From positions 1,240,001 to 1,304,000 of the forward strand of contig PMSI01000001.1 of assembly GCA_003168375.1 (NCBI GenBank): a stretch of DNA of 64,000 bases, written 5' to 3'. Within the stretch, counting starts at the first letter, position 1, and each line of letters opens with the position of its first letter. Made by a program: the position numbers and the translations under genes. Positions 59,964 through 64,000 of this stretch are shown here, piece by piece. This DNA comes from Vulcanimicrobiota bacterium (GTDB lineage Bacteria; Vulcanimicrobiota; Vulcanimicrobiia; Vulcanimicrobiales; Vulcanimicrobiaceae). The notes beneath the pieces are model-generated. The model had not been told where the DNA came from. It saw only the letters and a list, made by a program, of their open reading frames with translations, and did no database searches.

Positions 59964-60725
59964 TCAAGAGAACCAGTCTGTGATGCGGCTGCGCAACGCG
60001 TCAGCGTTATCCTGGAACTGCCGCTTGCGGTGGCCATTGCTGCCGGACGGATGCGGCATGCCGGTGAGAACACGCTCGATGGAAATGGCGCCGTGATCGC
60101 GGAGATACGATACGCCAGTCGCCGCAGCGACGCCTAGTGGCACGATTAGAGCACCCGGCGCGTGGGCAAGGCGCGGCGCGAGCAGTTCGTCCATCATGCG
60201 CCGGAAGAGCGCGATGCGTGCGAGGTCGATGCCGGTGCCGGAGAAATTGCGGAGCTCGGGCCCGACGAACACCGGATAGACAAGCGCCGACGTCGCTGCG
60301 GCAGATGCCATCGCGTTGCTGAACAGCTCGTTGCTTTCGCGGATCCCGAGGGCTGACGGGACCCCGATCGCATCGAGCATGCTACAGAGATTCCGGCGCA
60401 TACTGCCGGCGAACGCGACGCGATGTCGCAGGATGCCGGAGTACGTCACTGGATCGTCTCGGATTGCCTTCGGGGTCTCCACAAAGGCACGGGCGGCTTC
60501 CACGACCTGTGAGAAGCCGGGCGTCAGGCCCACGAAGACGACTTTCGCATCGGCCGGCGGCAATGCGCCGAGCGCTGCGTAGTACACTCGGTAGCGACCC
60601 TCCGCGGCGATCAGATACTGATCGTCGAGGAGTGAGAGCTTGTCGAACGACGCTGGCGCGTATCGCGCGCGAAACTCGGCTAATCGTGCTGCGCTGAACG
60701 GCGAGGGCTGCTCGGCGACCGTCAC
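59964..60725 (-). CDS. UDG-superfamily-like protein, copy 2
   Basis: This 253-residue protein (GTG 60725) is colinear with the protein at 49253, about 80% identical by eye and without gaps. The same motifs are kept (AKVVFVGLTPGFSQ; PHPSGSNGHR). Most differences are conservative, so both copies look functional. The GTG overlaps the stop of a truncated partner gene. Homology between the two loci ends just past the 3' stop of this gene and inside the partner gene, which marks the duplicated segment. Confidence 0.6.
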   Translation of the reverse strand: MTVAEQPSPFSAARLAEFRARYAPASFDKLSLLDDQYLIAAEGRYRVYYAALGALPPADAKVVFVGLTPGFSQVVEAARAFVETPKAIRDDPVTYSGILRHRVAFAGSMRRNLCSMLDAIGVPSALGIRESNELFSNAMASAAATSALVYPVFVGPELRNFSGTGIDLARIALFRRMMDELLAPRLAHAPGALIVPLGVAAATGVSYLRDHGAISIERVLTGMPHPSGSNGHRKRQFQDNADALRSRITDWFS

Positions 60726-60848
60726 GGCACAGCGTTGCCCAGAGACAGGTCGATCAGTGCGTCGCGCTGGCCGTTCATCTGGCGTGCCGTCAGGTGCGGC
60801 GTGAGGACGACCCTGGTCCTGCCGTCGTCGGCAACCTCGAACGGGTTC
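60722..60848 (-). pseudogene. 3' remnant of the UDG-like partner gene
   Basis: The minus strand reads NPFEVADDGRTRVVLTPHLT then ARQMNGQRDALIDLSLGNAVP and TGA. It is almost identical to the last 42 codons of the gene at 50011. The rest of the gene is missing and the fic gene begins its 3' end eight bases away. Confidence 0.8.
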
Positions 60849-60856
60849 CATTGTGC

Positions 60857-62074
60857 CTACTGGTTTGCGAATAGCCGTGGGAACAGAGCTTCCGCAGCAC
60901 CTGGAGGAAATTGCAGGGACACGGGTCCTTTCGGCGTTTCCGAGGCGAGGAGACCCTCCTCGACCGTCTGGTTCAACACGCGTCTCGCAGTGCGCTCGGG
61001 CAGTCCCGTGATGCGAGACGCTTCCCCTCGTTCAATCTCACCTCGTATCGCAGCCTCTTCCAGAAGCTTAGCCGCCTCGGGTCGTAGCCGATCGTCGCGT
61101 TCGACGAACGCACTCAACCGCCGTGTAAGTGTGTTCAATTCGAACAGGCCCGCCATAAATCTGACTTGATCGAGGCATACTTGAAGGAACCACAACACGA
61201 AATCAGAGAGCGCGCGGTGCGACAGGTTGCCTCGTCCATCGGTGTCGTTCTGACGCGGGGTATCGGCCATATCCATCATACTCTTGTACTCCGCCCGGTT
61301 TTCAAGCCCGCGCGCCAGACCGCGAGATACCGACCACAATCCATGAGCCCCGATCCCCGCGGCGTGGCCCATTGCGTGGCTCATGAGACGGCTCACACGA
61401 CCGTTCCCATCGGAAAACGGATGAATGTAATTCAAGCGATGGTGTGCCGTTGCGACCGCGATGATTCGCGCAGCCTTTCCCATGTCGTCGAAGCGGTAGC
61501 GCGCCTCGAAGTATTGCATAAAGTCGACGATTCGCGCGCTCGACGGAGGCTGGTGCCTACCGACGATGACATCATCGTCCGGATCCGAGCGCCATTCGCC
61601 CGGCCGCATCCGGTACTCCCGGTTCTTCTTGCGCACGTTCAGCATCGCGTCGGGTGCGTTCCGGTAGAACTCGCGATGAAGCCATTGAATGAATTCGCCG
61701 GATGCCGGCTCCGGTAACTGGCCCGACGCAGCGAGCCGATCGACCTCCGCTTGAACGGTGACGTGCGCCAAAGCCTCGAGCTGGAGATTTCTGCGCCCTT
61801 CGTCTTCGTCGAACTCACCAGCGAGAGCACGTTCGATCTCGCGAGGTCGTGTGTTATGACCCTCGATCAAGTTGCTGTAGTACGCGTTCATGATTCGAAC
61901 GAGACTCGCGAGGCTCGCCGCCGTTCGAGGGTGTAGAGCCGTTCCGAGAGCAGCGGACTCCGCAGCTAATTCCGCAATCACATCGGCTATCGGACCCGAG
62001 ACGACCTCAAGTCGCGTAGGCTCGATGCGATCGACGCTCTCCGGCCGGTCGTTGGCCGATTTAGCTAAGTCCAT
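60857..62074 (-). CDS. Fic-family AMP transferase, class II (self-inhibited)
   Basis: Fic proteins transfer AMP or other groups to protein hydroxyls. The 405-residue protein has the complete active site HPFSDGNGRVSR near residues 217-228. It also has an inhibitory motif S-x-x-x-E-G (YYSNLIEGHNT) at about 66-71, which puts the inhibitory helix N-terminal to the Fic domain (class II), so no separate antitoxin is needed. A winged-helix domain follows at the C-terminus (GEIERGEASRITGLPERTARRVLNQTVEEGLL), common in DUF4172/Fic regulators. ATG 62074 is the start. Confidence 0.9.
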   Translation of the reverse strand: MDLAKSANDRPESVDRIEPTRLEVVSGPIADVIAELAAESAALGTALHPRTAASLASLVRIMNAYYSNLIEGHNTRPREIERALAGEFDEDEGRRNLQLEALAHVTVQAEVDRLAASGQLPEPASGEFIQWLHREFYRNAPDAMLNVRKKNREYRMRPGEWRSDPDDDVIVGRHQPPSSARIVDFMQYFEARYRFDDMGKAARIIAVATAHHRLNYIHPFSDGNGRVSRLMSHAMGHAAGIGAHGLWSVSRGLARGLENRAEYKSMMDMADTPRQNDTDGRGNLSHRALSDFVLWFLQVCLDQVRFMAGLFELNTLTRRLSAFVERDDRLRPEAAKLLEEAAIRGEIERGEASRITGLPERTARRVLNQTVEEGLLASETPKGPVSLQFPPGAAEALFPRLFANQ

Positions 62075-62329
62075 TATCCTTGATATTACGGGTCAAAATC
62101 GGTCGTGTCCAGCAATTTTGGCCGATCCTGTGGCCGATCCTGTGGCCTGCGATGCCGCTTCCATGGCAGCAACCGCTCGCTCGCCTAGGACAAACATCCC
62201 GCTGCGAACGTACCTCGAAGGACACGTCTTAGGGAGCAGTCTGACGTTCGCGCGTCGCGCGTATGAGTTGCGTTCTGGAGTGCACACCATGGGGAAGTTG
62301 AAAGCCGGCGCGAGCGAACCCGGCCGGCA
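62075..62329. other. Stretch upstream of fic without a confident gene
   Basis: A minus-strand frame 62093-62380 stays open and ends just before fic with 'SRYVRSGMFVLGERAVAAME', faintly like a ParD antitoxin helix. It overlaps the small-RNA-like element and I do not call it. The promoter of fic should lie here. Confidence 0.35.
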
Positions 62330-62411
62330 TGCAATGAGCGGTATCGCCTCACGCCAAAGGGCGACCCCGGGGACATGCATCGCGCGCGATGCAGAGGTTA
62401 CGCCCGGGGTC
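62330..62411 (-). ncRNA. Candidate small RNA, copy X (two-stem element)
   Basis: The core at 62363-62411 folds as a 9-bp outer stem (GACCCCGGG/CCCGGGGTC) enclosing a 7-bp hairpin (TGCATCG/CGATGCA, loop CGCG). On the minus strand a -35-like TTGTCG (62450-62445) and -10-like TATACT (62426-62421), 18 bases apart, would start transcription at the outer stem. The downstream hairpin near 62335 (GAGGCG..CGCTC) is a degenerate terminator. Confidence 0.55.
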
Positions 62412-62523
62412 TACGCGCTCAGTATACCGTACCGCCGGTCATCGCGACAACCTATGGATGCTCCAATCAGTGGGCACGCGGCACCGTTGCCCCCAGCGCT
62501 CCGCGTACGCTCGTTCGGCGACC

Positions 62524-62580
62524 CTGTCAAGTCAGTCAAAATCCGTCTGAGCTGTCAAAGCTGCCAAAACCTGCGCATAG
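62524..62580. repeat. Two tandem 28-bp units of the CTGTCAAA...CAAAACC family
   Basis: Units start at 62524 and 62552 and match the four-unit array at 49102. Bases 62412-62659 otherwise contain the promoter of copy X and no gene. Confidence 0.7.
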
Positions 62581-62659
62581 TGGGCCATGGATTCTGCGGG
62601 TCTACCGCACGTCTATTCGGATCATGTCGATCTTGAGTGACCCCTGTCGCCGCACGGTG

Positions 62660-62752
62660 AACAAAAAAGAGGGGGCGTTCATCGCCTCCCTCTCCAAACC
62701 ATCGACTCCGGGGACTTTCATGCCGTCGCATGAAGAGGTTGATCCCGGAGTC
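62660..62752 (-). ncRNA. Candidate small RNA, copy Y (two-stem element plus terminator)
   Basis: The core at 62704-62752 has the same 49-nt layout as copy X: an outer stem GACTCCGGG/CCCGGAGTC and an inner hairpin TTCATGC/GCATGAA with loop CGTC. All four pair differences from X are compensated. On the minus strand a -35-like TTGCTA (62791-62786) and -10-like TACACT (62768-62763), 17 bases apart, precede it. A GC-rich hairpin with a run of six Ts (62693-62663) ends it, giving an RNA of about 90 nt. Confidence 0.65.
62662..62694 (-). terminator. Intrinsic terminator of copy Y
   Basis: On the minus strand AGAGGGAGGCG and CGCCCCCTCT pair (one mismatch, one bulge) around ATGAA and are followed by TTTTTTG. 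It is related to the hairpin at 53113 and, in degraded form, to the one after copy X. Confidence 0.75.
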
Positions 62753-62877
62753 TGCTCGGGTCAGTGTACCTCACGCGCGATCATGTAGCAAGCGACTTCG
62801 TGGCGCTAAGAAAGATCCTGCGCTCCGTCCGTACACCGGCAAACTTGCCGTTTCATGAATTACGCGAAGGGCCGAGG

Positions 62878-63348
62878 CTAGGCGATCTTTCGGTCGACGG
62901 ACTTCGTGTGGTTCGACCTGGATCGCACGACCAAGCCGGTTCGGGATTTCACGGGTGCGCTGGCCTTCGCTGGCACGTTCGGAATTAATCCGCGGTACGC
63001 CTCAATGAACTTCTCTCGCCTTCGATCCTTGGTGCGCGGGACGAACGCCGGCATGAAGTCGTAGCCTAGGGCTTCAGCGATCATCACGAGCCGACTGAGG
63101 GTCGCCCGGCTCAGGCCTCCGTGAAGATCGCGCGAGATCTGTGGCGGCTTCGCGTTCATTCGGCGGGCCAATTCGGCGGCGGTCACATGCTCGAGTTCCA
63201 TGATTCGCTGCAGCAGCTGCTCGACCGATGCCTCGGCGACGATGGCATTGATTTGTGCCGCACGCACGGGATCGCGTTTGGTCCGTTCGACGAGGGTCGT
63301 TCCACCTCGCCGTTTTCTTGCTTCATCCGCGGTCATAATACGTGCCAT
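62878..63348 (-). CDS. HigA-like antitoxin (Xre HTH)
   Basis: This 156-residue protein starts at ATG 63348, overlapping the toxin gene by 26 bases. An N-terminal extension with 'TLVERTKRDPVRAAQINAIV' precedes a helix-turn-helix: 'VTAAELARRMNAKPPQISRDLHGGLSRATLSRLVMIAEALGYDF'. Toxin-first order with an Xre antitoxin is typical of HigBA. It should bind and neutralise the upstream toxin and repress the operon. The C-terminal 35 residues are basic and disordered. A fragment of a paralogue is at 52859. Confidence 0.8.
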   Translation of the reverse strand: MARIMTADEARKRRGGTTLVERTKRDPVRAAQINAIVAEASVEQLLQRIMELEHVTAAELARRMNAKPPQISRDLHGGLSRATLSRLVMIAEALGYDFMPAFVPRTKDRRREKFIEAYRGLIPNVPAKASAPVKSRTGLVVRSRSNHTKSVDRKIA

Positions 63349-63751
63349 TATTCACTCGCTTGAAATAGTTGTGCCGTGCTAACAATGTTCGCGCCACGAC
63401 GCGATCGCCGGTCTTATCGCGCTTCTCGCCTTCTTTGAGGTAGTGGCCGAAGACGATCCATGTGTGCCCGCGCGGTTCGCGGAATGCAGTAAAGCGATGC
63501 TTGCCGGCCTTCATTGCGAGCACGAGCGGCTTCTCATGCTCTGCGTTGACCCGCGACTGTGCCGGTCTCTGTCCCGGCTCGACGTTGCCCCAATGGTCCA
63601 GACTGCCTTCGAAGTCGTTTTGCTCGCGAGGACGGAGCGATTCGAATGCGTCGAATCCCGGCATCGAACCGTCATCGGCCCAGAACCATTCGAAGCTTCG
63701 GTGCATCCCGTTATGAATCGTTAGGTCAGAAGCAGATCGTCGCTTTCCCAT
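63323..63751 (-). CDS. HigB/RelE-like toxin (phage Gp49-like)
   Basis: This 142-residue protein (ATG 63751) is placed first in a toxin-antitoxin operon. It has a short beta-rich core: 'HRSFEWFWADDGSMPGFDAFESL', 'KHRFTAFREPRGHTWIVFGHYLKEGEKRDKTG'. The 'F...P.......L....K..........G...F.....P........I..GF.K....' course fits Gp49/HigB-like RNases, which cut mRNA at the ribosome. The similarity is moderate, so the operon order and the Xre partner carry weight. An inverted repeat 15 bases upstream is the likely operator. Confidence 0.68.
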   Translation of the reverse strand: MGKRRSASDLTIHNGMHRSFEWFWADDGSMPGFDAFESLRPREQNDFEGSLDHWGNVEPGQRPAQSRVNAEHEKPLVLAMKAGKHRFTAFREPRGHTWIVFGHYLKEGEKRDKTGDRVVARTLLARHNYFKRVNNGTYYDRG

Positions 63752-63765
63752 ACCCGCGTGAAAAT

Positions 63766-63783
63766 GATAACATAAAGGTTACC
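63766..63783. promoter_or_regulatory. Operator-like inverted repeat of the HigBA operon
   Basis: GATAAC-ATAAAG-GTTACC has six-base arms with one mismatch. It is 15 bases upstream of the toxin ATG in an AT-rich stretch that may contain the promoter. HigA-type proteins bind such sites. Confidence 0.4.
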
Positions 63784-63835
63784 GTAGAAGCAAGTTGACC
63801 GGCAACGTTTAAGTGCCGTCCTAGCGTGCCGATAA

Positions 63836-64000
63836 CGGTACCAAGGCATCCGCGCCGGCCCGCGAGGAGAATTCCTCGCCGCCAAGGTTCGCGCATTGCG
63901 GCACGAGGTCGGCGGCTTCTACGCCCCCGACGGCATCATCGACGCTCCGCTCGGCCCGCTTGCCTATCGCGCCGTCCTCGAATGCAAGAGCGCGCCGAAC
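63836..64000 (+). CDS. Open frame running off the right edge
   Basis: From the TAA at 63833 the frame is open to the window end and reads GIRAGPRGEFLAAKVRALRH, then EVGGFYAPDGII and later 'YRAVLECKSAPN'. It is protein-like, but no ATG or GTG is present, so it may be a gene relic or use TTG. Without the rest no family can be named. Confidence 0.3.

Follow-up and report, generated by a model that had tools for sequence, protein, structure and literature searches.

Two structured elements of a Vulcanimicrobiota genome, here called X and Y, are best explained as solitary copies of an RNA antitoxin whose gene normally stands divergent to that of an AbiF-like HEPN toxin, a reading to which we assign a probability of about 0.7. 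The elements lie in a stretch of 64,000 nucleotides from contig PMSI01000001.1 (the window; positions are counted from its first letter). Their membership in a divergently transcribed RNA family linked to Abi_2 genes is close to certain. The computed evidence comprises this membership, the strand, the promoter and terminator pattern, the linkage to Abi_2, the AbiF-like fold of one partner protein and a partner undetected in this genome. The antitoxin activity of the RNA we infer from AbiF.

The two elements are:
62363..62411, minus strand: RNA element X, with a 9-bp closing stem, an AACCUCU bulge region and a 7-bp hairpin with a tetraloop
62704..62752, minus strand: RNA element Y, with the layout of X

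An earlier note on this DNA had described X and Y as two copies of a structured RNA, apparently transcribed from the minus strand, and homologues and further covariation (below) support this. Re-alignment confirmed that the two 49-mers lie at these coordinates and align without gaps, sharing the base in 35 of 49 columns. Re-reading bears out both stems, the outer of 9 bp and the inner of 7 bp, and all four stem pairs that differ between the copies (one outer, three inner) are compensated as the note had said. The AACCUC is mostly unpaired in the predicted fold. Folding z-scores for the two elements are -4.7 and -5.2 on the plus strand, and -3.6 and -4.9 on the minus strand. Because both strands fold well, energy alone cannot choose the strand.

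The signals around the elements are found on the minus strand:
62421..62426, minus strand: -10 box of X, TATACT, 9 nt upstream of the stem, with the same box in the copy of genome G004 (below)
62445..62450, minus strand: -35-like box of X, TTGTCG, spacing 18
62335..62351, minus strand: weak hairpin 3' of X without a T-run, perhaps a decayed terminator
62763..62768, minus strand: -10 box of Y, TACACT, 10 nt upstream of the stem
62786..62791, minus strand: -35-like box of Y, TTGCTA, spacing 17
62663..62695, minus strand: intrinsic terminator of Y, a strong hairpin followed by T6, with a homologous terminator in the G004 copy
62657..62799, minus strand: gene stretch of Y (promoter, RNA and terminator), whose homologue in G004 is the Abi-linked RNA gene (72% over 145 columns)

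The promoter-like boxes have the spacing claimed for them (18 in X, 17 in Y), and the hairpin with six Ts that had been noticed 3' of Y is there. The promoter-to-stem distances of 9 nt in X and 10 nt in Y agree with the family, in which the distance is mostly 9-11 nt on the CUCU strand. When tested for a T-run, Y has one past a separate hairpin and X has none. Judged by these signals, Y appears intact, and X lacks a T-tract.

A covariance model built from X and Y only (R1) found one clear homologue in 149 genomes of the phylum. This homologue lies in G004, a genome of the same genus (G004:C88:3826-3874, E 8.6e-7), so that the covariance search proposed in the note did return a further copy, in addition to relatives with added covariation. 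On its minus strand the same -10 box is followed by the element and then by a strong terminator. The element adjoins a 268-aa Abi-like frame on the opposite strand, whose protein matches the PADLOC PD-T4-5 model (E 4.7e-19) and has no Pfam match even at E<=10. Three more R1 matches, in G026, G039 and G102 (E 0.03, 0.83 and 0.008), appear to be chance hits; Abi matches are absent from these loci. Over 83 loci, R1 gave four matches at E<=0.1, three of them elements adjacent to Abi genes and one an orphan element (L180).

X and Y share a segment of the chromosome with other genes:
60845..63907, no strand assigned: variable island holding a Fic gene, X, Y, an HTH gene and a small toxin-like frame

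The flanks of this segment are nearly identical to those of the Abi locus of G004 (60708-60844, 92.7%; 63908-64000, 93.5%), which makes it one variable island with different contents in the two genomes. At this position G004 has other frames, one RNA copy and an Abi_2-like gene instead. The left edge of the island, the 137 nt at 60708-60844, is the part that matches the end of a longer G004 frame (L005:3-665), itself without a Pfam match. Alignment scores over the whole gene were 114 for Y against the G004 copy and 73 for Y against X. Since Y is nearer to the G004 copy than to X, the two are no fresh duplication; long separate histories seem likely, yet CCUCU and the stems have been kept.

The family was defined more widely from 80 loci in public genomes that encode relatives of the partner protein. 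Upstream sequence was displayed for the first 26 loci, and the same element was visible in many of these. A second covariance model (R2) was built from 21 loci, 20 of them in genomes outside the 149-genome set of the phylum and one (L111) with a title that names no group. Rows dropped before the model was built were L063, L082, L087, L091, L096, L108, L121 and L125, as well as L011, L012, L014, L018, L020, L005, X and Y. In a sequence-only alignment 98.8% of the cells are paired and 6 pairs show double changes. Values as high arose in 0 of 500 shuffles on four of five measures and in 29 of 500 on the fifth; the pairing of the outer helix in this test is partly selected, because seed candidates were picked only if an AG.G motif was enclosed by an outer stem of 5 bp or more, and helices 2 and 3 are unaffected. 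The consensus RNA reads CCCCGG-ACC-CGC-CUCU-GC..GC-AU-GCG-C-CCGGGG.

R2 matches 46 of the 80 Abi loci at E<=0.014, including 25 of the 59 loci that were not seeds, and every match lies opposite the gene strand. The other 34 loci have no match at this threshold, and of the matches weaker than E 0.014 several are found on the other strand or at another position. Record titles place Pseudomonadota, Actinomycetota, a cyanobacterium (L070) and Binatota (L067) among the 46 loci. Within the 64-kb window, X and Y are the first- and second-ranked matches (27.0 bits, E 5.6e-4, and 19.5 bits, E 0.031). These scores are well under those of most members, which mostly reach 40-60 bits, and the same model also gives X on the plus strand (E 0.14), scores the G004 copy similarly on both strands (E about 0.7-0.8), and recovered none of X, Y and the G004 copy in a stricter scan of the 149 genomes (E<=0.5). 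That X and Y are the top two in the window for a model made from other bacteria, and are also the sole matches found in their genome, is more than chance. CCUCU and the outer stem are preserved in both, as is a top hairpin, here longer; of the middle 3-bp helix of the family just two of three pairs form.

Within the phylum, relatives of the G004 partner protein are encoded by 9 of the 149 genomes. An element with the layout of X and Y lies directly 5' of the gene and on the opposite strand in seven of these nine, as judged by eye and by folding. R2 scores strongly on the elements of L010 (G124) and L009 (G031), weakly on L020 (E 0.046) and at just E 0.4-0.7 on others. It missed the G008 element and one G007 element at E<=1, and R1 finds the latter (E 0.0027). 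No element was seen by eye in G138, and R2 found none in G138 or G137 at E<=1. Two RNA elements of G007 (G007:C51 and G007:C8; L012 and L020) have as neighbours short Abi frames, 142 and 127 aa in length, which suggests that the RNA can outlive the gene.

The PD-T4-5 model of PADLOC was the best match for all nine partner proteins tested. Abi_2 (PF07751) matches six of seven proteins from the phylum at E<=10 (best 1.7e-9), and a Swt1-type HEPN model also matches four of the seven. The RNR..H motif of HEPN proteins is invariant in alignments of 7 and 27 members. The AlphaFold2 model of the L050 protein (Sedimenticola; pLDDT 95) is closest to the PbAbiF-ncRNA structure 8vz6 (Z 13.0, rmsd 3.2, 205 residues, 15% identity; next Z 4.5). 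As the tool itself notes, a Z near 13 can be chance for a helical protein, but an AbiF-like fold is supported by the distance to the next-best rows and by the family match. Foldseek also ranked PbAbiF first for this model (E 0.04). Sequence matches to solved structures were confined to designed ankyrin-repeat entries and their fusions, and were taken as spurious. In the source genome of X and Y, searches with one protein, two alignments and Pfam found no Abi_2 gene, and a profile found no Abi remnant near the elements (60801-64000; the best score, -2.5 bits, is chance).

Signals of transcription are asymmetric in the 46 loci matched by R2. A run of at least four Ts follows the element on the RNA strand in 27 of 46 and on the other strand in none. 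The promoter score reached 9 of 12 or more for 18 of 46 elements on the RNA strand; the opposite strand gave 2 of 46 and shuffles 1.3% (mononucleotide shuffles were used for these statistics). The two measures point to the strand opposite the gene as the one that is probably transcribed. A strand-specific pattern of this kind argues against mobile DNA hairpins such as REP sequences, integron attC sites or the ends of insertion sequences, which long imperfect hairpins within a variable island might otherwise bring to mind. Such hairpins are also at odds with the fixed position beside Abi_2 and with a copy number of just two, since neither a search with the element pattern nor the covariance model of X and Y found a further copy in the 4.43 Mb genome. 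We regard this explanation as extremely improbable.

Copies away from an Abi_2 gene were found in other genomes too. R2 was run over two sets of genomes, one of 31 with 38 matches and one of 289 with 20; as 3 matches are common to both, 55 are distinct. The 31 genomes were chosen because they hold Abi loci (32 loci were asked for, without L082), and 29 of them have a match; the scan of 289 found matches in 12 genomes. An Abi match lies within the fetched locus for 46 of the 55, in some cases to a broken gene (L161, L162). Of the remaining nine, L169 and L181 are too close to a contig end for a verdict, and L166, which has no CCUCU, is probably a false member. The other six (L163, L168, L176, L177, L180 and L183) we take to be orphans, judged over about 1.5 kb. 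The promoter boxes of L163 are poor and the best-scoring boxes of L177 are 40 nt away; L180 and L176 have kept good ones. L180 stands between frames that we take to be priA-like, just upstream, and ATP-synthase-like, after it. Genome G449 has three RNA copies, and the one Abi match that it gives is fragmentary, within a frame of 83 aa. In G354:C68 (L182:1302-3015) a row of five copies surrounds one Abi gene; each copy has promoter-like boxes, and neighbouring copies are about 200 nt apart on each side of the gene. Because orphans exist in the family, an adjacent Abi_2 gene is usual for membership but not required.

X and Y could also be family members that no longer function, left over from Abi_2 loci lost from the variable island. 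The lack of an Abi_2 gene in the genome, the lack of a T-run in X and the two elements of same-genus G007 beside their short abi frames are consistent with this. Leftovers would not be expected to have every stem difference compensated, to keep a promoter and a terminator as Y does or to retain CCUCU and the stems over what seem to be long separate histories; the good promoter boxes of the orphans L180 and L176 point the same way. We consider relics unlikely and prefer the reading of X and Y as solitary antitoxin RNAs.

The divergent position allows a different role, in which the RNA or its transcription represses abi by antisense or promoter interference, the promoter overlapping the abi start, and the RNA binds no protein. 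In several loci the RNA-strand -35 box, by eye, does overlap the first abi codons. A structure and an unpaired motif that are conserved across phyla speak against such a role, as do RNA copies found in tandem and away from abi genes. In the related AbiF system the RNA neutralises the HEPN toxin through direct binding, in cis and in trans (excerpts of PMC12373285). Such interference seems quite improbable, and binding to the toxin remains the preferred reading.

The note had proposed that AACCTC contacts the ribosome-binding site of a neighbouring toxin mRNA. An sRNA that regulates the adjacent toxin-antitoxin mRNA would fit the shared strand and the largely unpaired AACCUC, but no complementary site exists at either gene start. 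GAGGTT and AGAGG are absent from the minus strand of 62753-64000, where GAGGT occurs at two sites (62772 and 63308), neither at a gene start. The HigBA label given to these genes is unproven: the supposed HigB frame (63323-63751) has no Pfam match up to E = 1, and the gene downstream of it encodes a Cro/C1-type HTH protein (62878-63348; Pfam). Relatives of the element usually have an Abi_2-like HEPN gene, rather than HigBA, beside them. Regulation of the neighbouring mRNA is accordingly very improbable. CCUCU is conserved as the family's unpaired motif next to the 3-bp helix, an arrangement shared with abiF RNA, and need not have an anti-Shine-Dalgarno role. The HTH protein and a weakly HTH-like frame of G004 (L005:775-1221) have an N-terminal TLVERT..DPVRAA stretch in common, which hints at possible module swapping in the island.

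Rfam gave no match at the gathering score within the 64-kb window, in agreement with the note that had known no named family with this layout. No Rfam family matches the element in the 15 loci scanned of the 46 positive for R2. Relaxed matches (STnc320, P10, U1A_PIE, ctRNA and others) belong to unrelated families, lie far below the cut-offs and seldom overlap the elements. Three plasmid matches to 62330-62800 from a distant DNA search were judged chance. A literature search, which most subscription papers fell outside, returned no paper on a divergent RNA beside Abi_2. As far as searched, the RNA family of X and Y is apparently uncatalogued.

Type III systems such as ToxIN combine a protein ribonuclease toxin with a structured RNA antitoxin. 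PbAbiF-AbiFr (8vz6) is described as a type III toxin-antitoxin system and a proposed ancestor of Cas13 (excerpts of PMC12737573 and PMC12373285); its likeness to the new family lies in the fold of the L050 protein, on which the comparison was made. AbiF-like HEPN toxins with their RNAs are more generally proposed as ancestors of Cas13 (excerpts of PMC12165695 and PMC12737573). A review attributes inhibition of the enzyme to bulge nucleotides in the PbAbiF RNA (PMC12737573). The abiF RNA (RF03085), or RCd22 of Clostridioides difficile, likewise has an Abi_2/AbiF-type HEPN toxin as its partner, and like the new RNA it has its own promoter and terminator. The RF03085 consensus, as seen on phage phiC2, shares the GC-rich closing stem, the 3-bp helix and the adjacent CUCU. 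The top hairpin is extra in the new family, and RCd22 has two motifs in a single transcript, unlike the new family. The abiF RNA lies upstream on the strand of the gene and can read into abiF (PMC12373285, in part), whereas the new RNA is on the opposite strand. Neither X and Y nor the 15 Abi-linked relatives scanned reach the gathering score of RF03085; conversely, the abiF RNA of phage phiC2 goes unmatched by R2. Membership of the X/Y family in RF03085 was rejected since the covariance models do not recognise each other and 46 of 46 elements lie opposite the gene. Without a mutual match, the tie to abiF consists of the fold of the partner and a short motif.

PD-T4-5, a plasmid-borne abortive infection gene of E. 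coli active against T4, resembles the partners as their best PADLOC match. It is a distant relative of AbiF/D (excerpts of PMC9519451), and those excerpts mention no RNA; the new family has a divergent one. ToxI carries repeats (excerpts of PMC12373285). The tandem repeats of ToxIN are cut from one transcript, whereas the repeats of L182 look like separate promoter-RNA units. By analogy with these systems, the family probably acts as a type III-like antitoxin.

Other types of divergent RNA occur upstream of Abi genes. A second type (GGCUUUGAG..CCCCUCAUCGUC, or the GCGUGAGG variant) holds the same position in 14 of the 34 R2-negative loci at E<=0.014 (L076, L077, L085, L088, L090, L093, L094, L102, L109, L110, L113, L117, L122 and L123). 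Rfam gave one weak match, to L102, in the 7 of these 14 loci that were scanned. A third type, a hairpin of GCGACAGCC..GG(U/C)CCUCGC with a T-run, is found in 5 of the 34 (L061, L084, L100, L103 and L106), and L081 has a similar hairpin.

In the mechanism that we propose, the RNA would usually be encoded back to back with an Abi_2 (PD-T4-5/AbiF-like) HEPN ribonuclease gene. It would be made constantly off its own promoter as a transcript of about 50 to 95 nt, and would fold into the closing stem, the 3-bp helix, the unpaired CUCU and the top hairpin. The CUCU region may sit in the groove of the HEPN dimer and block the cleavage of single-stranded RNA, as reported for abiF RNAs. Phage infection would halt the supply of RNA, free the toxin and kill the cell. 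In the genome of X and Y the toxin has presumably been lost, and the two RNAs, Y intact and X possibly decaying, would most likely be trans-acting orphan antitoxins against incoming elements that carry Abi_2.

With a second RNA architecture, on the opposite strand and unmatched in Rfam, the PD-T4-5 branch would gain an antitoxin, and a single toxin fold would seem able to exchange its RNA partner. We tentatively propose, at somewhat less than even odds, that widespread, divergently encoded RNA antitoxins guard AbiF-like HEPN toxins in Pseudomonadota, Actinomycetota, Cyanobacteriota and other phyla, that different-looking RNA types hold the same divergent position in other branches and that X, Y and other free-standing copies act from the chromosome as a shield against Abi_2 toxins borne by plasmids or phages, which they would disarm on arrival. 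With such solitary copies, the idea of RNA anti-addiction becomes directly testable.
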